DNA of 64,000 bases from an uncultured Lactobacillus sp. (lineage in GTDB: Bacteria > Bacillota > Bacilli > Lactobacillales > Lactobacillaceae). The notes beneath the pieces were generated by a model, which was given only the letters and a program-made list of their open reading frames with translations, had not been told where the DNA came from and did not search any database. Position 1 is the stretch's first letter; the number at the start of each line of letters is the position of its first letter. The DNA lies in assembly GCF_944327175.1 (NCBI RefSeq), contig NZ_CALVGT010000032.1:40638-104637 (forward strand), in the 5' to 3' direction. The position numbers and the translations under genes are program-made. Below, piece by piece: positions 6,006-64,000 of this stretch.

Positions 6006-6730
6006 TATTTGTCACCTCTGATAATGGTCCCGATGTTTTCGCCTTCAACAACCCGCTTGATGTTGCCTGGAGTGTTGACGTTGAAGACAATCAATGGAAT
6101 ATGGGTATCCATGGACAAGGAGCTGGCAGTTCTGTCCATGACTTGCAGGCCCTTGGAGATCATGTCCAGCTGGGTCAGTTCAGCAAACTTCTTGGCGCTT
6201 GGATCCAGGTTCGGGTCAGCCGTGTAGACCCCGTCAACCCCGTTCTTGGCCATCAGGATCACGTCAGCGTTAATTTCTGCTGCCCGCAAAGCAGCCGTAG
6301 TGTCAGTTGAGAAGTACGGGTTGCCAGTGCCGCCACCGAAGATAACGACCCGGTTCTTTTCCATGTGGCTGATTGCCACCCGGCGGATGTAAGGTTCAGC
6401 CACTTGTCGCATGGAGATTGAAGTTTGCAGTCTGGTTGGCACACCGGCAGTTTCCAGACCATCTTGCAGGGCCAGGCCATTCATGATCGTGGCCAGCATG
6501 CCCATGTAGTCAGCCTGAGCTCTTTCCATGCCCAGCTTGGCTCCGGTTTCACCGCGCCACATGTTGCCGCCGCCGCAAACGACGCCGATCTGCACGCCCA
6601 TGTCATGAACCAGCTTAATTTCATGTGCCAATTTCTTGATCACAGTTGGGTCAATGCCAGTTCCCTTTTCCCCGGCCAAAGCTTCGCCGGAAATTTTCAA
6701 AATGATACGATGATATTTAACTTGACTCAT
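6005..6730 (-). CDS. pyrH: Uridylate kinase (UMP kinase)
   Basis: Phosphorylates UMP to UDP, feeding pyrimidine nucleotides to RNA and wall synthesis. It belongs to the amino-acid kinase fold. Visible motifs are [10 protein letters not shown] near the N-terminus, the glycine-rich [12 protein letters not shown], and the ATP-binding region [18 protein letters not shown]. The 241-residue length is typical. The start has the ribosome site AGGAGG. It heads the pyrH-frr-uppS-cdsA-rseP-proS-polC run, with a candidate promoter just upstream. Confidence 0.97.
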
Positions 6731-6755
6731 AATGCCCTCCTAATTAGCTCTAACT

Positions 6756-6761
6756 ATTTTA
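6756..6761 (-). promoter_or_regulatory. Candidate -10 element of the pyrH operon
   Basis: TAAAAT on the minus strand, in an AT-rich stretch about 26 bases before the pyrH ATG. No good -35 is seen at 16-18 bases (only a GAGACA-like hexamer). A small ACAG/CTGT inverted repeat sits immediately upstream. Confidence 0.45.
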
Positions 6762-6835
6762 CCATAAAACAGAAAACTGTCTCTCCTATTTACGCTATTT
6801 CCCCAGCTTAAATTTGCAAAAGCAAATTTGCCGAC

Positions 6836-6865
6836 AAAAAAAGGATGGGTTCCCCCATCCTTTTT
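6836..6865 (-). terminator. Intrinsic terminator after tsf
   Basis: Minus strand: AAAAAGGATGGG, a ggaa loop, then CCCATCCTTTTTTT. The stem is perfect and followed by a T-run, 15 bases after the tsf stop. It separates the rpsB-tsf unit from pyrH. Confidence 0.92.
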
Positions 6866-6879
6866 CTTGCTAGAAGAAA

Positions 6880-7908
6880 TTAGTTCTTCATTTGTGCAGC
6901 AACTTCAGCAGCAAAGTCTTCTTGCTTCTTTTCGATGCCTTCGCCGACTTCGAAACGAACAAAGCTTACTACGGAAGCGTTGACTGATTCAAGGTATTGT
7001 TCAACAGTCTTGCTGTCGTCCATAACGTAAAGTTGGGCAAGCAAGGTGTTTTCTTGGTCAACCTTGGTGTTGTCCAGCATGAAGCGGGCCATCTTGCCTG
7101 GGATGATCTTGTCCCAGATCTTTTCTGGCTTGCCTTCAGCCTTCAATTCTGCCTTGATGTCTTCTTCAGCTTGAGCAACGACTTCGTCAGTCAATTGAGC
7201 CTTTGAACCATACTTAAGGTGTGGCAAAGCTGGCTTGTTGACCATGGCACGTGATTCGTTGTCTTGGTCAATCTTGTGGTTGAGCTGAGCCAGTTCTTCG
7301 CGAACGAAAGCTGGATCAAGTTCTTTGTATGAAAGAACCTTTGGGCTCATTGCGGCAATGTGCATTGCAATGTGCTTAGCCAAAGCTTCGTCGCCGCCTT
7401 CAAGAACAGTCAAGACGCCGATGTGACCGCCGTTGTGTTGGTAAGCGCCAAAGTGTTGGTCATCAGTCTTTTCAAGAACAGCGAAGCGGCGGAAGGAAAT
7501 CTTTTCGCCGATAGTTGCAGTAGCATTTACGTATGCTTCTTCAAGGCTTTCGCCTGAAGGCATGGTCAATGCCAAAGCTTCTTCGTTGTTGGCTGGCTTG
7601 CCCTTGGCAATAGTTTCAGCAGTTTCGTTAACCAAAGTCTTGAACTGGTCGTTTTGAGCAACGAAGTCAGTTTCAGCGTTAACTTCAACGATAGCAGCAA
7701 CGTTGCCGTCAACGTAAACGCCAGTCAAACCTTCAGCAGCAATCCGGTTAGCCTTCTTGGCAGCCTTTGCTTCACCCTTTTCGTGGATGATTTCGATAGC
7801 TCTTTGCATGTCGCCTTCGGCTTCAACCAGGGCCTTCTTGGCGTCCATGACGCCGGCACCAGTAGTTTCACGCAATTCCTTGACTTGCTTAGCAGTAATG
7901 TTTGCCAT
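6880..7908 (-). CDS. tsf: Translation elongation factor Ts
   Basis: Nucleotide exchange factor that regenerates EF-Tu-GTP. The N-terminal UBA-like part contains [23 protein letters not shown], the family hallmark (TGAGMMDCKKAL class), followed by [10 protein letters not shown]. At 342 residues it is longer than the roughly 290 residues usual in Bacillus, with extra sequence in the dimerisation/core region. This length may be characteristic of the lactobacillar lineage, but that needs comparison. It is 63 bases after rpsB and ends at a strong terminator. Confidence 0.97.
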
Positions 7909-55292: not shown

Positions 55293-55655
55293 CTAGTCGT
55301 CGAGAACCTTTACACCTTGAACAACGACGTTGACCGCCTTGGTGTCGATCCCCAGCTGGCTTCTTAAGTTATATTTGACACTGTCTTGTACATTACGACT
55401 TACTTCAGAAATTTTCAAGCCGTAACCAACAATAATATAGACATCAACAGTTACTTGATTTTCGTCAGACTTAACAACGACGCCGCGCTTATAGTTTGCC
55501 CGGCTTAAAATGCTGTCGACTCCGTCTCTGATGGCATTCTTGGATGCCATACCGACAACGCCATAGTTAGACGTAGCTGCACCACCAACAACAGTTGCAA
55601 TTACACCGTTTGAAATATCAATCAAACCATACTTTGTCTTGATTTTAACAGCCAT
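55293..55655 (-). CDS. Asp23/Gls24-family envelope stress protein (YloU type)
   Basis: A 120-residue protein of the alkaline-shock family. Start at the ATG preceded by GGAGGATAAAC. Core: KTKYGLIDISNGVIATVVGG, then the repeated beta segment NYKRGVVVKSDENQVTVDVYI and YGLKISEVSRNVQDSVKYNL. Paired with fakA as yloU-yloV in Bacillus. It may be linked to membrane or envelope function; the mechanism is not known. Confidence 0.92.
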   Translation of the reverse strand: MAVKIKTKYGLIDISNGVIATVVGGAATSNYGVVGMASKNAIRDGVDSILSRANYKRGVVVKSDENQVTVDVYIIVGYGLKISEVSRNVQDSVKYNLRSQLGIDTKAVNVVVQGVKVLDD

Positions 55656-55761
55656 GTTTATCCTCCGTCTTATTTCCAATATACACCCTTATTTTATCAT
55701 AACGAGATCAAAAGCTAACAGTTCCGACTTATTTTCTGGAAAATACTTTTCAAAATAATAA

Positions 55762-55790
55762 TTGAAAAAGATCAAAGTTTATGGTAAAGT
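55762..55790 (+). promoter_or_regulatory. rpmB promoter
   Basis: TTGAAA (55762-55767), a 17-base spacer, TAAAGT (55785-55790). About 40 bases before the rpmB ATG. Confidence 0.8.
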
Positions 55791-55829
55791 CTAATAGTAT
55801 GACATGACATGTAAAGGGGGTTTAGCAGC

Positions 55830-56015
55830 ATGGCAAAAGATTTCGTAACCGGTAAGAAGACCACTTTTGGTAACACGCGTTCACACGCTTTGAACTCATC
55901 ACGTCGTTCTTGGAAGCCAAACCTTCAAAAAGTTCGCATTCTTGTAAACGGCAAGCCTAAGCGCGTTTGGGTTTCAACCAAGACTTTGAAGTCTGGTAAA
56001 GTTACCCGTGTCTAG
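55830..56015 (+). CDS. rpmB: 50S ribosomal protein L28
   Basis: Large-subunit protein, 61 residues, opening [20 protein letters not shown]. It has no cysteines, so it is the zinc-independent type. Own promoter, own terminator. Divergent from the Asp23-fakA operon, the conserved yloU-rpmB arrangement. Confidence 0.97.
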
Positions 56016-56027
56016 TGACGAAACGGG

Positions 56028-56060
56028 CCCGGTAGATCAACGATCTGCCGGGTTTTATTT
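56028..56060 (+). terminator. Terminator after rpmB
   Basis: cccggtagatc, aac loop, gatctgccggg, then ttttatttt. One wobble in an 11-bp stem. Confidence 0.92.
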
Positions 56061-56086
56061 TTGGCAAAAAGTTCAAATAAACAACT

Positions 56087-56117
56087 AAAACAGGCAGCTC
56101 TGGGAGCTGCCTGTTTT
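56087..56117. terminator. Bidirectional terminator at the end of the RiPP operon
   Basis: aaaacaggcagctc, tgg loop, gagctgcctgtttt: a perfect 14-bp stem. It abuts the stop codon of the ABC exporter gene. Confidence 0.93.
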
Positions 56118-57689
56118 TTACTTTTCCGCCAAATTGACCACCCGGTCAAACATGGCTATTTCTTCGTCTGAAATCTTGTGGGCGACTTCGATTACGGTAC
56201 CAGGGAAATTCTGCAGAATTGTTTGATGAATTTGCTTTGACAAGCGAGGATCCAAAGCCGAAGTAGCTTCATCAGCCAGAAGAACCGGCCGCTTGGCCAA
56301 GAGGGCTCTGGCAATTTCTAGCCGCTGGCCCTGGCCACCGGACAGATTTTTGCCTTCTTTGCCGACTTGGTAGTCCAAGCCTTTTTCTTCAACCAGGCCG
56401 CTTAAGCCAGCTTTTTGGCAAACTGCCAGCAGATCTTCGTTGCTAACCTTTCTGCCCAAAGTAATATTGTATTCAATAGTATCGTCAAGAATATAGGGCT
56501 TCTGCTGAACAAAGGAGAAGTACTCGTGATCCTTACTCCAGTTGCCATCCGCGTCATCACCGTTGATTTCGTAATTCCCATCTGCCAGACGGATTCGGCC
56601 AACCAGAACATTAAGCAAAGTCGACTTGCCCCAGCCAGACGGTGCTTCCAACAGGACTTTTTCTCCGCTCTTAACAGTCAAATCGAGATCGTTCAAGAGC
56701 TTCCGGTCCCCTCTTTGCACGCTTGCATCGTCTAAAGAGAGTTCTTTAAACTCTTCCCGGTCAGCAGCATTTTCTTTTGCTGCGAAATCTGCCACGGCAG
56801 AAAACTTTTTCCAGATCGGGTTGCTGGTTTTAATATCATTGACAGATGAAAAGATGCCGACAATCGGATTGATGAAGTTGTTGGCCAGCTGGGAGATCAT
56901 CATAAAGGTCCCCAAAGTGATCTGCCCTTTAGTTACAAAGTAGATGCCCAGGCTGAAAGGGATAATCATGCTGCAGACATAGGCAAAGGAAGTAATAACT
57001 TCAGTCGTCACCATTTCCGTCTGCTTCATCCTGGCCAGAGCCGTCTCCATTCTCTGGCTGTAGTGGAGCATTCTGGAAAAAATGCTGTCTTCAGCATCGT
57101 AAAGTCTGGCAAAGGCAGCAAAATTGATGGTGTCCGTCATTGCCTCAGTATATTTGCTGTTCTCCCCTTCCCAGGCAGAAGAAGCAGCTTCAATTTTTGG
57201 CCCGAAAATATTCTGCAAAAGGCCAGGAGCCAGGGAGGCGACCAGGAAAATCAAGGACAGAGCCCAGGAAGACAGCATGGCTGCCGCAAATGCCGCGATA
57301 AACTGCAGGCCATTGAAAATAATGTCAAGTTCAGCTTCTACCCGGTGACTTTCCACCTGCTTCAAGTCATTGGTCATAAAGGATAGGTCAAATTTGGGAT
57401 CAGAATTATCTGAATACAATAAATATTTTGTTACCTGCTCTTTAATCTTCAAGTTGACGTCCCTAATAATATTAGCCTGCATAATTTGGTAGATTAAGGC
57501 CAGGCAGGCAAAAAGGACAATCCCGACAACCGCTTTAATGGTTAATTGTAATAAACTCCCCTTAGGATTTCCGGCAAAATTAATGAATTCCTGGAAGACA
57601 TAAGCGATAAAAACCGCCTGCATGGCCTTAGCAGCAGCAAAGACCGCAAAGACCAGCAGCTTCCACTTGCTGGCATATTTTAACGTCAT
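56118..57689 (-). CDS. ABC exporter of the putative RiPP cluster
   Basis: A 523-residue half-transporter: membrane domain (about 1-290) followed by an ATPase domain with EAPSGWGKSTLLNVLVG, signature NLSGGQGQRLEIARALL, and VLLADEATSALD with the catalytic Glu. It has no N-terminal C39 peptidase domain, so leader removal, if any, must be done elsewhere, possibly by the M16 protein. It overlaps the M16 gene by four bases (ATGA). Base composition is closer to the host than the two genes before it, so it may have been a resident exporter recruited by the cluster. Cargo inferred from context only. Confidence 0.8.
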   Translation of the reverse strand: MTLKYASKWKLLVFAVFAAAKAMQAVFIAYVFQEFINFAGNPKGSLLQLTIKAVVGIVLFACLALIYQIMQANIIRDVNLKIKEQVTKYLLYSDNSDPKFDLSFMTNDLKQVESHRVEAELDIIFNGLQFIAAFAAAMLSSWALSLIFLVASLAPGLLQNIFGPKIEAASSAWEGENSKYTEAMTDTINFAAFARLYDAEDSIFSRMLHYSQRMETALARMKQTEMVTTEVITSFAYVCSMIIPFSLGIYFVTKGQITLGTFMMISQLANNFINPIVGIFSSVNDIKTSNPIWKKFSAVADFAAKENAADREEFKELSLDDASVQRGDRKLLNDLDLTVKSGEKVLLEAPSGWGKSTLLNVLVGRIRLADGNYEINGDDADGNWSKDHEYFSFVQQKPYILDDTIEYNITLGRKVSNEDLLAVCQKAGLSGLVEEKGLDYQVGKEGKNLSGGQGQRLEIARALLAKRPVLLADEATSALDPRLSKQIHQTILQNFPGTVIEVAHKISDEEIAMFDRVVNLAEK

Positions 57690-58894
57690 TTCTCTGCTCC
57701 TCGTAAGTAATAGACTACACTACTGCAAGTCTGTCTATTCAAATAATTAACGAATTTCTCAAACTCATCAAAGATCTGATCATGATCATCAAAAGCCCCT
57801 TTATTCACATCTTCCTCTCCAAAAATCATTTTCGAGAAAGAGTCAATGCTCTTTTCAGCACCATCAAATTGAAGCATCCTATTAAATAGCACATTTTTGA
57901 TTGTATCTGCTACTTCTACTTTGGACAGATGACTTATGCTTTTAAAATATGCTGATATGTATTTGGAAACTTTTGTAACATCACTTGATGTACAAGATGT
58001 TAATATCTGCAGATAAATTCTGTTACCTCTTACAACGGGATTGGCGAAGACAAAATACAGTTTAGGTATTTTTTTATGAAGGCTCGTCAAGATTGAATTC
58101 TTCCCGTTATTCAACACAGAAAATAAGAAACTCAAGGATGCTATTTTGATTTCATCAACTTCTGATGAGCAAAGATTATAAACCAATGACACATATGCAG
58201 TTCTTGCTTTTTCCATTCTATTCAAATCGTGGTTGCCAGTATCTATCGAAAGAGAATCTTCTCTCGTTCTACTTGTAATATTAATTGAATTTTGCTTGGG
58301 AAAATCGATTTTTGAAACTGCACTCTTAATTCTTTTAAGCGCACTTTCTCTTCCTGTAGCAAAAATCACAATATTATCGGGATATAATGTTTGTTTCAGA
58401 AATTGCGACAATTCCTTCACAGAGACACTAGCAACAATATCCTCTGAACCCAAAATTGGATCCGAAAACACATCATTACTACGAAAGGATATATTTCGTG
58501 ATATAGTTGCAAATCGTTCAAGACTACTCGATAAGTATTGATTTATTTCCTGGATAACAACCTTTTTTTCGATTTCAAGATCTGCATCAACTACATTGAA
58601 ATTTATCAAGAAGTCAAAGAAAGTATCAATTGCTCCAAAATAATCCTCATCTGACATTCCTAATATATTTATCGAAATATATTTTGTATTTGTATGTCCA
58701 TCGATACTGATGTAATCCGGCATATTGCTACAATGAGTCAGCACATGCTCTAGTAAGTGAGGCAATCCTACTGAATCTTGACTAATAAAATATAATCTAA
58801 AAGAAATTCCTGTCAAATATGAATCGCTGATACTTTTCTGATAAAAAATTATGCCATTTGTTAATTTTAATCTTTGATTTGGATAATTTCCCAT
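57686..58894 (-). CDS. M16-family (pitrilysin-like) zinc metallopeptidase of the putative RiPP cluster
   Basis: A 402-residue protein with the inverted zinc motif HLLEH at residues 46-50 and a glutamate (KKVVIQEINQ, Glu116) at about the distance of the third zinc ligand. The rest matches the two-lobed M16 fold (KQTLYPDNIVIFATGRES). M16 proteins process peptides in PQQ and subtilosin-type clusters, so leader cleavage is a reasonable inference. It overlaps the ThiF gene by 28 bases and the ABC gene by 4. It is markedly AT-rich compared with core genes, suggesting transfer. Not recognised as any named enzyme. Confidence 0.78.
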   Translation of the reverse strand: MGNYPNQRLKLTNGIIFYQKSISDSYLTGISFRLYFISQDSVGLPHLLEHVLTHCSNMPDYISIDGHTNTKYISINILGMSDEDYFGAIDTFFDFLINFNVVDADLEIEKKVVIQEINQYLSSSLERFATISRNISFRSNDVFSDPILGSEDIVASVSVKELSQFLKQTLYPDNIVIFATGRESALKRIKSAVSKIDFPKQNSINITSRTREDSLSIDTGNHDLNRMEKARTAYVSLVYNLCSSEVDEIKIASLSFLFSVLNNGKNSILTSLHKKIPKLYFVFANPVVRGNRIYLQILTSCTSSDVTKVSKYISAYFKSISHLSKVEVADTIKNVLFNRMLQFDGAEKSIDSFSKMIFGEEDVNKGAFDDHDQIFDEFEKFVNYLNRQTCSSVVYYLRGAEK

Positions 58895-59985
58895 AACTTG
58901 CTACTTGAGCATTCCTTCCCACATGTCGGACACTCATTTTCTCTACCGAAACTAATAAATTTTTCTTCCTTCAGCTTGTTAAAATCGAATCTAAGAAGGG
59001 TGTTCACACAACTTGCTTTCTTAGTCAACTCATCTAGCCATCTTCTTGTAATCCAAGCAGTTTCCAACATCATGTTAGGAACAATTAACGGTGTAATGGG
59101 TAAAAAACTAGCATTTTGGAAACTGGCGATCAACTTTCTGAATTGTAGATTATCCCGATTGGTTAACAAACAATCTACACACCCGGTTTTTCCAGGATAA
59201 ACTATCATTAACTTTGCTGAGTCTCTTGATGTAAATCCATATAAACTTGGAATATTTCTAGAAAAACATGCGCGATTTACTGTTCTCTGTGCGATATATG
59301 GTGGTTCATCAATGCAACAAAAAGCCCAATCCGCATCTGATAATTCTTTTACAGCATCTGTCACTCCCTCAATTCTCCTGGTTGAAGTTGTAACGTTTAT
59401 TTTGGGATTTCGATCGCTAAGATACTTCTTTACTGCATCAACTTTTAATTTTCCGACATCTTTGGCCGAAAATAGTATCTGACGATTTAGATTCGATTCA
59501 CTTATGACATCCGGATCGACGATATGAATATTGCCTACTCCCAAATTCGCCAATTGAAGAGCAATTAAACTGCCTCCTCCACCCGCACCAAAAATTGTAA
59601 TCTTCAGACGCGCTAATTTGTTTAAAATCTCATAGCCATCTATTCCTTCACTGTAATAATAAGTGACGTCACTCTTAAATCGATTACCGGATGTCAAGCT
59701 ATCCAATTTTTTTGTCAATATGGACAATGCATGTACTTTGAACAATTTGACTATGATAGCACTTATATCATAAATCTTTAATTTTGTGTTCATTGATAGC
59801 AAATCATCCACACTGTGATTTCCATCCATGAGCTTTAGAATAGAAAAAATATCTTCACTTCCTGTGTTTAACTGTACTACATCTGTATCATCAGTTCCTA
59901 TTCTGATTGCATCTGTGCCATAGCGATAGATTAACTTATCTCTATGTACCATAGGGTAATAGCTTAATAATTCTATGTAATCCAT
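58867..59985 (-). CDS. ThiF/E1-like adenylating enzyme with RRE-like N-terminal domain
   Basis: A 372-residue protein. Residues 1 to about 95 look like a PqqD/RRE winged-helix domain (VVQLNTGSEDIFSILKLMDG, then SVDDLLS), the usual leader-binding module of RiPP enzymes. The E1 core has the nucleotide loop FGAGGGGSLIALQLANLGVG (GAGGGGS at 133-139), VDPDVISESNLNRQ, and zinc cysteines CVDC (269-272) and CPTC (352-355). It likely activates a carboxyl group of the adjacent 38-residue peptide by adenylation. It is AT-rich. Alternatives: a MccB-like or pantocin-type E1 enzyme; the peptide does not match either class. Confidence 0.82.
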   Translation of the reverse strand: MDYIELLSYYPMVHRDKLIYRYGTDAIRIGTDDTDVVQLNTGSEDIFSILKLMDGNHSVDDLLSMNTKLKIYDISAIIVKLFKVHALSILTKKLDSLTSGNRFKSDVTYYYSEGIDGYEILNKLARLKITIFGAGGGGSLIALQLANLGVGNIHIVDPDVISESNLNRQILFSAKDVGKLKVDAVKKYLSDRNPKINVTTSTRRIEGVTDAVKELSDADWAFCCIDEPPYIAQRTVNRACFSRNIPSLYGFTSRDSAKLMIVYPGKTGCVDCLLTNRDNLQFRKLIASFQNASFLPITPLIVPNMMLETAWITRRWLDELTKKASCVNTLLRFDFNKLKEEKFISFGRENECPTCGKECSSSKLWEIIQIKD

Positions 59986-60002
59986 AATAAAATATAAATA
60001 AA

Positions 60003-60031
60003 GGAGTACTAATCGGAAGATTGAGTACCCC
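60003..60031 (-). terminator. Imperfect hairpin between the peptide gene and thiF (candidate attenuator)
   Basis: Minus strand: GGGGTACTCAATC, TTCC loop, GATTAGTACTCC. The arms pair with one bulge and one wobble. A T-rich tail (TTTATTTATATTTTATT) runs up to the thiF ATG. It lies 7 bases after the peptide stop. Such a partial terminator would favour peptide over enzyme expression. Confidence 0.6.
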
Positions 60032-60038
60032 TAGTTTA

Positions 60039-60155
60039 TTAAATAAAGTACCAATTAGTAGTCTTTGTATCCCCATCGCGAACTTCAGTTACTTCAAAAG
60101 AAAATTCCTTAGACGCGCCTTCGATCATTTCTTCAAATTTTTCCATTGCTTTCAT
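60039..60155 (-). CDS. Putative RiPP precursor peptide, 38 residues
   Basis: A small gene with strong signals. The ATG at 60155 is preceded by GGAGGTG nine bases upstream, with a good promoter before that. The peptide begins MKAMEKFEEMIEGASKE, continues FSFEVTEVRDGDTK, and ends TTNWYFI. It is acidic in the leader-like first 24 residues; the C-terminal third carries D, T, N, W and Y, and there is no Cys and only two Ser. It lies 53 bases before the ThiF gene on the same strand. Position, size and neighbours fit a precursor. The core boundaries and the modification are unknown. A start at Met4 is possible. Confidence 0.78.
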   Translation of the reverse strand: MKAMEKFEEMIEGASKEFSFEVTEVRDGDTKTTNWYFI

Positions 60156-60187
60156 ATCTATTTTCACCTCCTTAGCTTATAATTAGA

Positions 60188-60215
60188 ATAATACTACAGT
60201 TCATTAAAAAGTCAA
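60188..60215 (-). promoter_or_regulatory. Promoter of the RiPP operon
   Basis: Minus strand: TTGACT (60215-60210), a 16-base spacer, TATTAT (60193-60188). It sits between the surface-protein terminator and the peptide gene and gives a leader of about 25-30 bases. Confidence 0.8.
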
Positions 60216-60225
60216 TCTAATTTTA

Positions 60226-60262
60226 ATTAAAAAACACATCGAATTTTATTCAATGTGCTTTT
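60226..60262 (-). terminator. Terminator after the LPXTG surface-protein gene
   Basis: Minus strand: CACATTGAAT, loop, ATTCGATGTG, followed by TTTTTTAATT. One mismatch in the stem. Confidence 0.82.
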
Positions 60263-60276
60263 CTTGGATAATTTAT

Positions 60277-63200
60277 TTATTTTTCGCTCTTCTTGCGCTT
60301 GCCAAAAGCGAAGAGACTTGCACTGGCCAGCAGTGCCACAATCCCTGCCAGGAAGGCGGACTTATTCTGGCTTTCACCAGTTTGCGGCAAAGCAGTACTT
60401 GATCCTGCCGGAGTCTTAGCAGCAGAAGTTGCTGGAGCAGTCTTTTGAACAGGACTGGCTGGAGTGGCTTGCTTTTTGCCAGTTGCCTTGATGTCAGTCT
60501 TGCCTGCCGAAATTACGATAGTTTCGGTTTCACCGGAGTCAGCTGGACTTTCACTTGGCTCGTCTTTCGCTGGAGTTTCAACTGGTTCGTCTTCACTCGG
60601 CGTAGTTGGAGTTTCACTCGGTTGATTATCACTTGGAGTGGTTGGAGTTTCACTCGGTTTGTTATCACTTGGAGTGGTCTGAGTTTCGCTCGGCTTATTG
60701 TCACTTGGAGTAGTCGGAGTTTCGCTCGGCTTATTGTCACTTGGAGTAGTCGGAGTTTCGCTTGGCTTGTTTGCTTCTTCCAAGGATTCCAAAATAGCCA
60801 GGTGCTTCTTGGCTTCAGTAAGCGCCAAATCAGCGGCTTCCTTGGCCTTAGCTGCGACAGCTGAATCAGCTTGCTTGCTTGCCAAGTTGGCTTGTGCTTC
60901 AGCCAAATCCTTCTTAGCTGCTTTAACTGCTTCGTTTGCGGCTTGCACTTCAGCTTGAACAGCCTGCAAGTCGGAAAGCTTCTTTTCTGCAGCAGCCTGC
61001 TTGGTTTCCGCGCTTTGTACGGCAGCGTGTGCCTTCCCTGCAGCTTGAGCAGCTTCTTCTGCAGCAGCATCAAGTTCTGCCAACTTAGCCTTTTCGCTGG
61101 CAGCATTCTTTTCTGCTTCAGCCAAAATAGCAGCCTTTTCCGCGGCCTCTTTGTTTGCGCTGGCCAGCTTGCTTTGCGCTGCCTTGTCTGCGGCAGCTGC
61201 ATCTTCTGCAGCCTTCTGTGCACTGGTAGAAGCTTCTTTGTCGGCTTCCAATGCCTTTTGGGTATCAACAGTCTTTTCCTTAGCTGACAAAAGCTTTGCC
61301 TTAGCAGCCGCGAGATCAGTTTGAGCTTGGCTAAGACTGCCATTTGCTTCATCAAGGGCTGCTTGCTTCGCCTTGGCGGTTGCTGCCAAAGGAGCCAACT
61401 TTTCATTTTCTGCAGCCAAATCAGCTTGCGCAGCAGTTAAATCAGCCTGCTTAGTTTGGTAAACTACAGCCGTCTGGGCATATGCCGTCTGGGCAGCAGT
61501 AAGGTCATCAGCTGCCTTAACAGCGGCTGCTTCAGCTGCCTTCAACTGGTCAGCACTGTTTTCCTTTTCCTTCATAGCTGCAGCAAGAGTTTCATCTGCC
61601 TTGGTTAAAGCACCTTTCTTTTCAGCTAACTTATCTTCAGCCTTTGCAAGTTCATGCTTTGCTTGATCCAACTTGCTGTTAGCAGCCTTAAGCGCGTCAA
61701 CTTTTTCATCAGCCGCCTTTTGAGCAGCGGCAGTAGCCTCCTTGGCCTTTATCAGCTTCTCTTTGACGGATGCTTCATCATATGGATTTTCCAGAGTCTT
61801 GATCCCATTGGCCTTTTCCCACGTGTTTTGGTCGCTGATCGGTCCAGACAAAATTGATGTGCTAGTATAAGTCCTTTTACCCTCAGTTCTGGCGGTCGTT
61901 GTTACTTGATCAGTAAGGTTTGGCACTACAATAAAGTGATACTGTTGAAGGTGGTAACCATCATCAACATCTGTACCATCAGCAGAAAAACCAACATAAG
62001 TTTTTAAATCCTGGTTAGTATTATTGAACCGCAATGCATCTATACCCAGCAGACTGATTGCATGCCCCATTTCGTTGCCGCCAGTATTGTCATCAAAAAG
62101 CATCCCCATAACGCCTTCGAACACATGGGATTTTGCTTCATACATCGTGATAGTATCGCTCGGACTGCTTCCAAAACTTAATCTCGTACTTAAGTTTTCA
62201 ATTGCCTGGCCTTCAGAGTCTTTTAAGGCCAGTAAGCCATATTTCTTAGCGACGATGTTAACCACAGCATTATCATGCCCCTTGTATGCACCGTTCCAGC
62301 GGTCATTGCGGTAACCAGTTGCAATTTCGCTTGCCGCTGCATTTGCACCAAGTGATCCTACTGTTTGACCTGCAAGATCAGCAGTTCCCAAGGCAGCCCG
62401 GGCTGAATTGAGCAACTGAACAAGATAAGCCCCCAATTCCTCTTGCTGCTTCTGGGTCAAGTTGTTTAAGTCAACGTCGACATTCTTATCACTATCTAAT
62501 CCATAGTAGGTGTTCAAGTTCATGCCAGCAGCCATTGCATCTGCCCAAGTATTGATGGCTTGCTTATAGGTGGCTTCATCAATTTCTTTCTTGTTGTACT
62601 GCTTTTGCGCGTTTGCAAATGCCAGCGTTGACTGCTTCAAGGCATCATTGGCCACTACCTTAGGTAAAGCCTGGTATTCCTGCTCAGCTTCGCTTTCGGC
62701 TGCCTTCTTTGCAGCTAAGTCTTTATTTGCGGCGTCGCCAGCATCCTTAGCCTCCTTATCCGCGGCAGTCAGTTCCGTAACCTGGCCGTTTACCTGGTCA
62801 ACCGCCTTTTGCGCTTCTGCTGCTTCTTGAGCTTTTGCCGCCTGGTCACTGCTTGCCTTTTCCAGCTTTTCTTTTGCAGCTTGATCTGCTGCCTTGGCAG
62901 CAGATAAATCCTTTTGAGCATTAGAATTTGTAGTCTTGGCATTTTCCAAATCTTTTGCCAATTTTGGCAAGCCCAAGTCGTCAACTACCTTTTGGGCCTG
63001 GTCAACTTTACCTTCCGCTTGGCTTACATTGCCTTCTTGCTCAGCCTTAGCCGCCTGTGCTTCATCATTAGCCGTCTTGGCTGCTTGTGCCTTTTGGCTG
63101 GCTGAGTCTGCCGTCTTTTCAGCTGCACTTGCTTCATCTTCAGCCGATTTTTCTGCCTTTTGCGCATTTTCCAAGTTTTCCTTGCTCTTTTGCGCTTGAT

Positions 63201-63789
63201 CTGCCGCGCTCTTAGCTGCTTGATCTGCTTGAGCTTTCTTGTCAGCAGAATCATTGGCTGCTTTTTGCGCTTGGCTCAAACCCACTCGGTCTAAATCCGC
63301 TTGGGCTGCCTTTTGCGCTTCTTCAGCCTGGCTAGTCAGCTGCGCTTGGTCACTGGCCGCCTTTTTTGCCGATTCTGCTGCTTGATCTGCCGTCTTGGCT
63401 TGATTGTTTGCATCGGCAAGATCTTTTTCTGCCTGGCTGACTGCCCCTTCGGCAGCTGGTTGCTCTGCTTTAGCTTGATCAGCTGCTTTTTGGGCAGCGG
63501 CTTGCTGGTTGCTTGCCTGGTCATAAGCCGTTTGGGCTTGACCAGCCGCGCTCTTAGCTGCCTCTTCCGCCTTTTGGGCGGCACTTGCTTGATCAGCCGC
63601 GCTTTGCTGTCTCTTTTCCGCCTCACTGACCGCGGTCTTGGCGTTTTCAACCGTATCCGCCTGGACCGCTGGAGTTGTCACTTCAGCCTTGACGCTGCCT
63701 TGACTGACCACACCTACACCGACCACGCCGATCCCGGCAGTCGCTACAACAGCTATTTTCCGTAAATCTTTCTTCGCTTTATTTTCCAT
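60277..63789 (-). CDS. LPXTG-anchored coiled-coil surface protein with SEC10/PgrA-like domain
   Basis: A 1170-residue wall protein. Signal peptide about 1-34 (basic KAKKDLRK, then a Val/Gly-rich helix, cut after VKA). Two long coiled-coil regions rich in Ala, Lys, Glu and Gln (about 40-375 and 680-1010) flank a globular central region (about 380-670, with GAYKGHDNAVVNIVAKKYG and MGHAISLLGI) that resembles the SEC10/PgrA surface-exclusion domain. Proline-rich 12-residue repeats (about 1030-1095) would span the wall. LPQTG near residue 1134, a hydrophobic helix and KRKKSEK follow, a sortase substrate. The start is the ATG at 63789 after TAGGTGA; an in-frame GTG lies three codons upstream. The adhesive or exclusion role is inferred. 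Confidence 0.9.
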   Translation of the reverse strand: MENKAKKDLRKIAVVATAGIGVVGVGVVSQGSVKAEVTTPAVQADTVENAKTAVSEAEKRQQSAADQASAAQKAEEAAKSAAGQAQTAYDQASNQQAAAQKAADQAKAEQPAAEGAVSQAEKDLADANNQAKTADQAAESAKKAASDQAQLTSQAEEAQKAAQADLDRVGLSQAQKAANDSADKKAQADQAAKSAADQAQKSKENLENAQKAEKSAEDEASAAEKTADSASQKAQAAKTANDEAQAAKAEQEGNVSQAEGKVDQAQKVVDDLGLPKLAKDLENAKTTNSNAQKDLSAAKAADQAAKEKLEKASSDQAAKAQEAAEAQKAVDQVNGQVTELTAADKEAKDAGDAANKDLAAKKAAESEAEQEYQALPKVVANDALKQSTLAFANAQKQYNKKEIDEATYKQAINTWADAMAAGMNLNTYYGLDSDKNVDVDLNNLTQKQQEELGAYLVQLLNSARAALGTADLAGQTVGSLGANAAASEIATGYRNDRWNGAYKGHDNAVVNIVAKKYGLLALKDSEGQAIENLSTRLSFGSSPSDTITMYEAKSHVFEGVMGMLFDDNTGGNEMGHAISLLGIDALRFNNTNQDLKTYVGFSADGTDVDDGYHLQQYHFIVVPNLTDQVTTTARTEGKRTYTSTSILSGPISDQNTWEKANGIKTLENPYDEASVKEKLIKAKEATAAAQKAADEKVDALKAANSKLDQAKHELAKAEDKLAEKKGALTKADETLAAAMKEKENSADQLKAAEAAAVKAADDLTAAQTAYAQTAVVYQTKQADLTAAQADLAAENEKLAPLAATAKAKQAALDEANGSLSQAQTDLAAAKAKLLSAKEKTVDTQKALEADKEASTSAQKAAEDAAAADKAAQSKLASANKEAAEKAAILAEAEKNAASEKAKLAELDAAAEEAAQAAGKAHAAVQSAETKQAAAEKKLSDLQAVQAEVQAANEAVKAAKKDLAEAQANLASKQADSAVAAKAKEAADLALTEAKKHLAILESLEEANKPSETPTTPSDNKPSETPTTPSDNKPSETQTTPSDNKPSETPTTPSDNQPSETPTTPSEDEPVETPAKDEPSESPADSGETETIVISAGKTDIKATGKKQATPASPVQKTAPATSAAKTPAGSSTALPQTGESQNKSAFLAGIVALLASASLFAFGKRKKSEK
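60590..60769. repeat. Five tandem 36-bp repeats encoding a Pro-rich wall-spanning segment
   Basis: Five near-identical copies of a 36-base unit encoding KPSETPTTPSDN (variants Q for P and Q for K). It is a coding repeat, prone to copy-number change. Confidence 0.85.
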
Positions 63790-64000
63790 ATGACTCACCT
63801 ATATAAATACACAATAGTTCGAGATAATATCCCTTAACTTTTATTATGTTAGAGAATATTGGGTCAGATTATGTCAAATTGTGTCATTTGATATGATTTT
63901 GCCGAGTGTCTGCTTTAACAGCTTTAATATCTAGACCGACCTTTTTCAAGCAATACCTAGCAAGTAAGTATCACAAACGCTCCCTTGATATGGTTTTCAA
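63790..64000. other. Upstream region of the surface-protein gene; no intact gene seen
   Basis: AT-rich. TTGACA lies on the minus strand about 90 bases before the ATG, without a clear -10 at standard spacing. A short minus-strand frame (about 63893-63976) could be the tail of a lost or out-of-window gene (ends GLDIKAVKADTRQNHIK), but a stop lies upstream of it within the window. Nothing else is supported. Confidence 0.4.

Follow-up and report, generated by a model that had tools for sequence, protein, structure and literature searches.

The closest described relative of the locus studied here is the ind cluster of Streptococcus pneumoniae, which makes a ribosomally synthesised and post-translationally modified peptide (RiPP) and consists of the precursor IndA, the enzyme IndF, the M16 peptidase IndP and a transporter (Rajput et al. 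2025, PMC12150305; this paper and the review PMC12250964 are cited throughout from the parts of their text available to us). IndF joins the indole nitrogen of a Trp to the carboxyl of the C-terminal Ile, and the modified core EDTTNWYFI was released by the IndP of S. equi. The W6-I9 bond was established by nuclear magnetic resonance (NMR), a W6A variant gave no conversion, and the authors left the residues MIMI off the precursor; in these texts S. pneumoniae IndF together with S. equi IndP is the one enzyme set tested biochemically for the ind reaction (PMC12150305). Here we describe a four-gene locus at positions 56,118 to 60,215 of a 64,000-nucleotide stretch from an uncultured Lactobacillus sp. 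(contig NZ_CALVGT010000032.1, positions 40,638 to 104,637; this whole stretch is called the window below). Sequence comparison and analogy with the pneumococcal system make it very likely that we are dealing with an ind-type (indolylamide) RiPP operon whose Trp-Ile cyclic peptide would be exported.

An NWYFI group whose clusters hold a peptidase, a transporter and a regulator is listed in a review, which counts 31 instances and describes the group as exclusive to "Lactobacilli" (PMC12250964). Enterofaecin (EnfA/EnfB) has a ThiF-like enzyme with a RiPP recognition element (RRE), an adenylated C-terminus and a Trp-containing hydrophobic tail, WWIVI (PMC12250964). It resembles the window system in enzyme family and type of tail, and probably in RRE and adenylation too, but it differs in core and cluster, and its exact structure is said to need more NMR (PMC12150305). 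MccB of microcin C7 and PaaA of pantocin A share with the window enzyme an E1-like domain and probably an N-terminal RRE and are its best fold matches, whereas their products are different and they have no NWYFI core. Membership in the microcin C class was rejected, as the window precursor ends in Ile and that of microcin C in Asn (PMC12250964). The pantocin class was rejected too; its precursor has an adjacent Glu-Glu core and a follower (PMC12250964), while the conserved part of the window peptide is the C-terminus itself and so leaves no follower. A search of the literature since 2023 found nothing joining ThiF-like, RiPP and Lactobacillus. For the 31 instances the review cites its reference 22, which we presume to be Wang et al. 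2024 (ACS Omega).

The cluster lies on the minus strand and runs from 60155 to 56118 with all four frames open. The initial annotation had described a peptide, ThiF, M16 and ABC gene set with overlaps of 28 bases (ThiF/M16) and 4 bases (M16/ABC), and the coordinates confirm this arrangement:

60039..60155, minus strand: precursor peptide gene (IndA-like), 38 amino acids; related genes adjoin ind-type ThiF genes
58867..59985, minus strand: IndF-like ThiF enzyme, 372 amino acids; residues 1 to about 95 RRE-like, residues 117-353 ThiF domain
57686..58894, minus strand: IndP-like two-domain M16 metallopeptidase, 402 amino acids; HLLEH at residues 46-50, E116
56118..57689, minus strand: ATP (adenosine triphosphate)-binding cassette (ABC) exporter, 523 amino acids; membrane and ATPase domains

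The annotation had further held that the combination fits no familiar class. This part has to be given up, as the combination is that of the ind (NWYFI) indolylamide RiPPs, described in 2025: like the S. pneumoniae cluster, the window has a precursor ending in NWYFI, an IndF-type ThiF with the five residues tested in IndF, an M16 peptidase and an ABC transporter. Its RiPP operon model, with a ThiF-like protein activating the peptide, an M16 protein removing the leader and an ABC protein exporting the product, gains support from the homology to ind. The two systems differ in layout. The exporter gene is last in the window but first, before the peptide gene, in the streptococcal ind loci seen; seven residues separate EVR from NWYFI in the window as opposed to five after EIR in the streptococcal genome G176; and no Rgg gene is adjacent to the window cluster.

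We used G176 as the link to the published enzymes. Its precursor frame reads MIMI followed by MEDFNILELEFEEIREEDTTNWYFI, starting with MEDF, which fits the omission of MIMI by the authors, and its ThiF has Q, K, Y, K and T at residues 167, 179, 228, 256 and 298, matching the IndF numbering (PMC12150305). The doubly charged cyclic core EDTTNWYFI was calculated at 585.7587 m/z and published at 585.7591 (PMC12150305). From these agreements we infer that IndA and IndF themselves are encoded in G176. With 42% identity to the G176 protein, the window ThiF keeps all five residues mutated in IndF, as Q169, K181, Y230, K258 and T298. The same five are kept in the L. bombicola, G312, G370 and Roseburia proteins, which together with those of the window and G176 made up the alignment; the interrupted and cut genes and the full-length G205 stood outside it.

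The ThiF domain family PF00899 matches residues 117-353 of the window protein at 8e-46. Among solved structures in the PDB, the closest relatives by sequence were MccB and then thiamin ThiF, and a Foldseek search with the structure model aligned about 350 columns with MccB and with PaaA, at 17 to 25% identity. A tree was built from 17 ThiF proteins, and its five ind-type members formed one group (support 99/100). The other sequences were sought at 16 loci and taken from 12, as four (L006, L038, L048 and L061) held no suitable frame; both the tree and the structure alignment omit the interrupted and cut ThiF genes, G205 and G312.

The window precursor is MKAMEKFEEMIEGASKEFSFEVTEVRDGDTKTTNWYFI, with a leader ending at about EVR and a core ending in NWYFI, and AAGGAGG stands just upstream of its gene. 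The pattern GAAGTNMG-gap-NWYFI-stop occurs once in the window and not at all in 100 shuffles. As the pattern is unique in this comparison and related peptide genes adjoin related ThiF genes, the peptide gene is not a chance open reading frame (ORF). Across 11 distinct peptides the tail residues N, W and F are invariant; at the end stands I in ten peptides and V in one, and two places before it Y in nine and N in two. Upstream of the tail these peptides have a common E/D-[VI]-R stretch and are otherwise variable. Variable C-termini had been predicted for co-occurring gene sets, and we find the opposite: the genes do co-occur, and the last five residues are the most conserved part of the peptide. 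A fixed target would account for the conserved tail, and so would the mere demands of the enzyme. The calculated [M+H]+ values of candidate cyclic fragments are 1442.659 for DGDTKTTNWYFI, 1327.632 for GDTKTTNWYFI and 1270.610 for DTKTTNWYFI.

As a control, NW-x-[FYWL]-[IVL]-stop was scanned at 28 loci of other ThiF-family genes, which mostly reached only about 1.5 kilobases to either side of the gene; 27 held no match and one did, so the tail motif is not wholly absent beside other ThiF-family genes. The match, at L006, is a 15-codon frame that ends in SNWLYI; the ThiF-family gene close to it is 31% identical to that of the window, and the frame is perhaps another ThiF-linked precursor, perhaps chance.

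The ind-type set comprises 14 ThiF genes, four from Lactobacillus (4/75 genomes, E 1e-40), nine from Streptococcus (9/284) and one from Roseburia hominis An869. At 1e-20 there were matches in 22 Streptococcus genomes; the 13 beyond the nine reached 26 to 34% identity at best. The best matching piece was 42 to 57% identical to the window ThiF in 12 ind-type genes, those besides the window's own and that of Roseburia. When 398 genomes drawn from the window's class were searched, three ThiF matches reached 1e-60, each already among the 14. The co-occurrence of peptide and ThiF genes, which had been proposed as a check of the operon model, was found throughout but for one case: a peptide ending in NW-x-F-[IV] adjoins 13 of the 14 genes, the one without it being G036, whose ThiF lacks its N-terminus and whose M16 gene is followed by no exporter. 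Seven of the ThiF genes are full length, five are interrupted (G057, G071, G137, G196 and G133), and besides G036 one more is incomplete, G340, which runs to the contig end. As G057 matches a metagenome assembly, some of the interruptions may be assembly errors.

Scans at the DNA level covered the genome contigs. The peptide pattern, which required GAAG, Val before Arg, a gap of 5 to 7 residues and exact NWYFI, found at least four stretches; peptides with EIR, NWNFI or NWYFV escape it. The back-translated window ThiF gave no confirmed match in these contigs. Among plasmids 391 records matched the ThiF, all below 60% identity and at most 32.7% among the 40 matches listed, and none matched the peptide. 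Nineteen phage records matched the ThiF, all below 60% and none over 80% of the query (eight matches listed), and no viral contig matched the peptide pattern.

Another close relative is the ind-like cluster of L. bombicola (G023, L021 and L028), which has the same order of peptide, ThiF, M16 and ABC genes, overlapping ThiF and M16 genes (25 bases), and ThiF and ABC proteins each about 52% identical to those of the window. It differs in its core, NDSTHHNWYFI, in M16 and ABC genes that do not overlap, and in having two tandem precursor genes (L021:4788-5064), whose products share the last 15 residues and have different leaders. In Roseburia hominis An869 (L060:7685-7777 and 6479-7603; also L027) a peptide ending in INWYFI, a ThiF 38% identical to the window's, an M16 and an ABC gene follow the window's order, with a subtilase-type gene behind them and an RNPP-like regulator upstream; in the Roseburia family 2 of 299 genomes gave a match to this ThiF at 1e-30, one being the Roseburia genome itself and the other reaching 30% identity. 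NWNFI tails occur in the streptococcal precursors L052:6304-6384 and L055:4235-4318, and an NWYFV tail at L053:4224-4316. In the available text of PMC12150305 and PMC12250964 there is no mention of a clostridial member, of NWNFI or NWYFV tails, of an exporter with only about 22% identity to the streptococcal one or of a hairpin in the spacer. At two loci (L023:5328-6430 and L024:5448-6595) the ThiF frame is split near the point where the N-terminal domain meets the ThiF domain, and at one of them the two frames overlap by 4 bases; this could be an error, decay or a truly split enzyme.

We propose the following course for the window system. The RRE-like N-terminus of the ThiF protein would bind the leader of the 38-residue precursor, and the ThiF domain, using ATP, would activate the C-terminal Ile38 by adenylating its carboxyl. 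Attack of the Trp35 indole nitrogen on the adenylate would then release adenosine monophosphate and close a four-residue W-Y-F-I macrocycle, with an overall loss of one water. A zinc-dependent M16 peptidase could cut off the leader near EVR-DG, after which the ABC exporter would secrete a peptide of about 9 to 12 residues with a cyclic tail. By analogy the product is very probably a small cyclic peptide with the rare Trp-to-Ile bond. The sequences themselves show the gene content, the homology and the conservation. The first steps are drawn from the published work on the homologues along with the conserved residues; that the Lactobacillus enzymes catalyse the same reaction, as well as the exact cleavage site and the export, we infer.

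The N-terminus was expected to be RRE-like. The structure model predicts three strands followed by three helices in this region, with 10-residue means of the predicted local distance difference test (pLDDT) between 28 and 72 over residues 1-100; three strands and then three helices are the arrangement of an RRE. When five ind ThiF proteins were combined in a profile, it aligned with PaaA from profile position 38, inside the PaaA RRE, which spans residues 1-98 (PMC12250964). The whole-length fold matches to MccB and PaaA point the same way. When the five N-termini were scanned alone, PqqD was matched in two (best 0.00098) and PaaA-like_N in one (0.056). The predicted topology and these weak matches in homologues uphold the expectation weakly, while the window's own sequence matches no RRE family, and an RRE at the ThiF N-terminus is likely judging from homologues and model. 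The odds of the ind assignment are unaffected by this result, since the ThiF domain carries that assignment together with the peptide and the set of genes.

In the window M16 protein, PF05193 scored 26.1 bits over a cut-off of 23, and its structure model is a full-length two-domain M16 fold. H46, E49, H50 and E116 are invariant in all seven aligned M16 proteins; outside this alignment stood G312, G137 and G133, which were aligned separately, and three short or broken sequences (G205, G196 and G057). The M16 frame of G205 and G196 is short, 169 amino acids, in agreement with the remark that SpIndP is an atypical single-domain protein (PMC12150305). The window ABC protein matched PF00664 and PF00005, and no peptidase domain was matched in the domain search. 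This ABC family is common in Lactobacillus (31 of 61 genomes searched, E 1e-120 or better) and mostly found without an ind ThiF, hence the exporter was probably recruited within lactobacilli, once or more often. It adjoins the cluster in two of the three other Lactobacillus loci (G023 and G057, not G036).

Several observations weigh against the ind assignment. For the N-terminus, the first 100 residues of the window ThiF matched no RRE family (best Csc2, 0.011), and in the N-terminal profile search of the PDB, PaaA (E 0.35) and PqqC/D (E 0.56) ranked below unrelated proteins. The confidence of the ThiF model is modest (mean pLDDT 64.7) and its root-mean-square deviation to MccB is 16 A, probably owing to two domains loosely placed in the model. 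PF00675 was absent from the matches of the M16 protein at E up to 1, and the identity of this protein to its streptococcal counterparts is only about 20% (21% to that of G176). The ABC protein is about 22% identical to the G176 exporter, and just three of the 31 genomes with its family carry an ind ThiF (G000, G023 and G036), its tie to the pathway being drawn from the M16/ABC overlap and the same neighbour in G023 and G057. Further, the published masses of the IndA precursor and leader lie about 1 Da above those calculated, a difference that may come from a second isotope peak.

Three other explanations were considered. The Lactobacillus ThiF might use the activated carboxyl in another way, with a lysine or the N-terminus as nucleophile, for C-terminal amidation or for a nucleotide adduct of the microcin C type. 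ThiF-like RiPP enzymes do differ in product, and the window core, DGDTKTT upstream of NWYFI, differs from the published one and contains a lysine; but the five residues tested in IndF are all kept, including K and Y near the Trp, as are N, W and F in the tail of all 11 distinct peptides, and we regard such a product as highly improbable. There is a negligible chance that the ThiF serves thiamin or molybdopterin synthesis next to a random short ORF. PF00899 spans ThiF and MoeB too, but the window protein scores 105 bits against a cut-off of 275 for ThiF and 67 against 377 for MoeB, its best PDB match is MccB, and related precursor genes adjoin its homologues. A housekeeping ThiF or MoeB identity was rejected on these scores, and the RiPP reading of the initial annotation, against which an absent peptide gene or, together with a lack of RRE similarity, clustering with thiamin or molybdopterin enzymes would have counted, survives.

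The cluster could also be a decaying or silent remnant that makes nothing, which would be compatible with the ind assignment of what its genes encode. The interrupted and incomplete ThiF genes (five interrupted, one without N-terminus and one cut by a contig end among 14) speak for this, along with the lack of an adjacent Rgg-type regulator, unlike at the four other loci tested, and the AT-richness of the first three genes relative to the host. On the other hand the window has four open frames, the IndF-tested residues, the M16 motif and a hairpin in place, and we consider a remnant quite unlikely; judged by its sequence, the cluster is genuine and probably functional. The G+C content is 32 to 36% in the peptide, ThiF and M16 genes, 46% in the ABC gene and 49% in the window, which suggests a foreign origin of at least the first three genes.

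The Lactobacillus set provides a further system for finding the ind product and its role. That exporter and peptidase diverge next to a fixed core hints at which parts of the pathway are bound to the product. A wider range is indicated by the Roseburia cluster and by the NWNFI and NWYFV tails, all of which offer natural variants for what IndF-type enzymes accept. We further speculate, tentatively and holding it to be unlikely, that the NWYFI macrocycle is a conserved signal or effector of Lactobacillus, Streptococcus and at least one clostridium, with precursor tail and IndF kept, peptidase, exporter and regulator diverging or exchanged, and NWNFI and NWYFV marking separate groups. Within this speculation, a kept tail and IndF amid diverging partners would suggest a fixed receptor or target.

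Three possible expression signals accompany the genes:

60188..60215, minus strand: TTGACT-16-TATTAT, a promoter-like site ahead of the peptide gene that agrees with the consensus at 10 of 12 positions
60002..60032, minus strand: hairpin between peptide and ThiF genes, then a T-rich stretch; -14.5 kcal/mol against a shuffle mean of -5.8, z -4.4
56087..56117, minus strand (scored on both strands): terminator-like 14-pair hairpin after the ABC gene

One promoter and one terminator had been claimed, and both sequences are present. It should be noted that promoter-like sites in 55500-60500 number 17 against 13.5 (standard deviation 3.9) in shuffles, not clearly more than by chance, and the promoter call is therefore weak taken alone. 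Peptide-to-ThiF spacers were folded for seven of the 13 peptide-bearing clusters, and all seven had a hairpin (z -2.6 to -6.1); the spacer of 32 bases that separates the tandem L. bombicola peptide genes was folded as well and had none. The spacer hairpin is a putative attenuator, which would yield more peptide than enzyme.

Rgg-type genes were found near the clusters at all four loci tested (L022, L023, L049 and L055), the one at L023 scoring over the Pfam cut-off and under that of NCBIfam. The NWYFI group of the review includes a regulator gene (PMC12250964), in contrast to the window cluster, which has none adjacent to it, the search being confined to its neighbours and not extended to the rest of the genome. 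Downstream the cluster is flanked by a plus-strand gene at 55830-56015, which we take to be rpmB. Directly upstream, at 60277-63798, lies a large Ala/Lys-rich LPXTG-anchored surface protein with SETPTTPSDNKP-like repeats.

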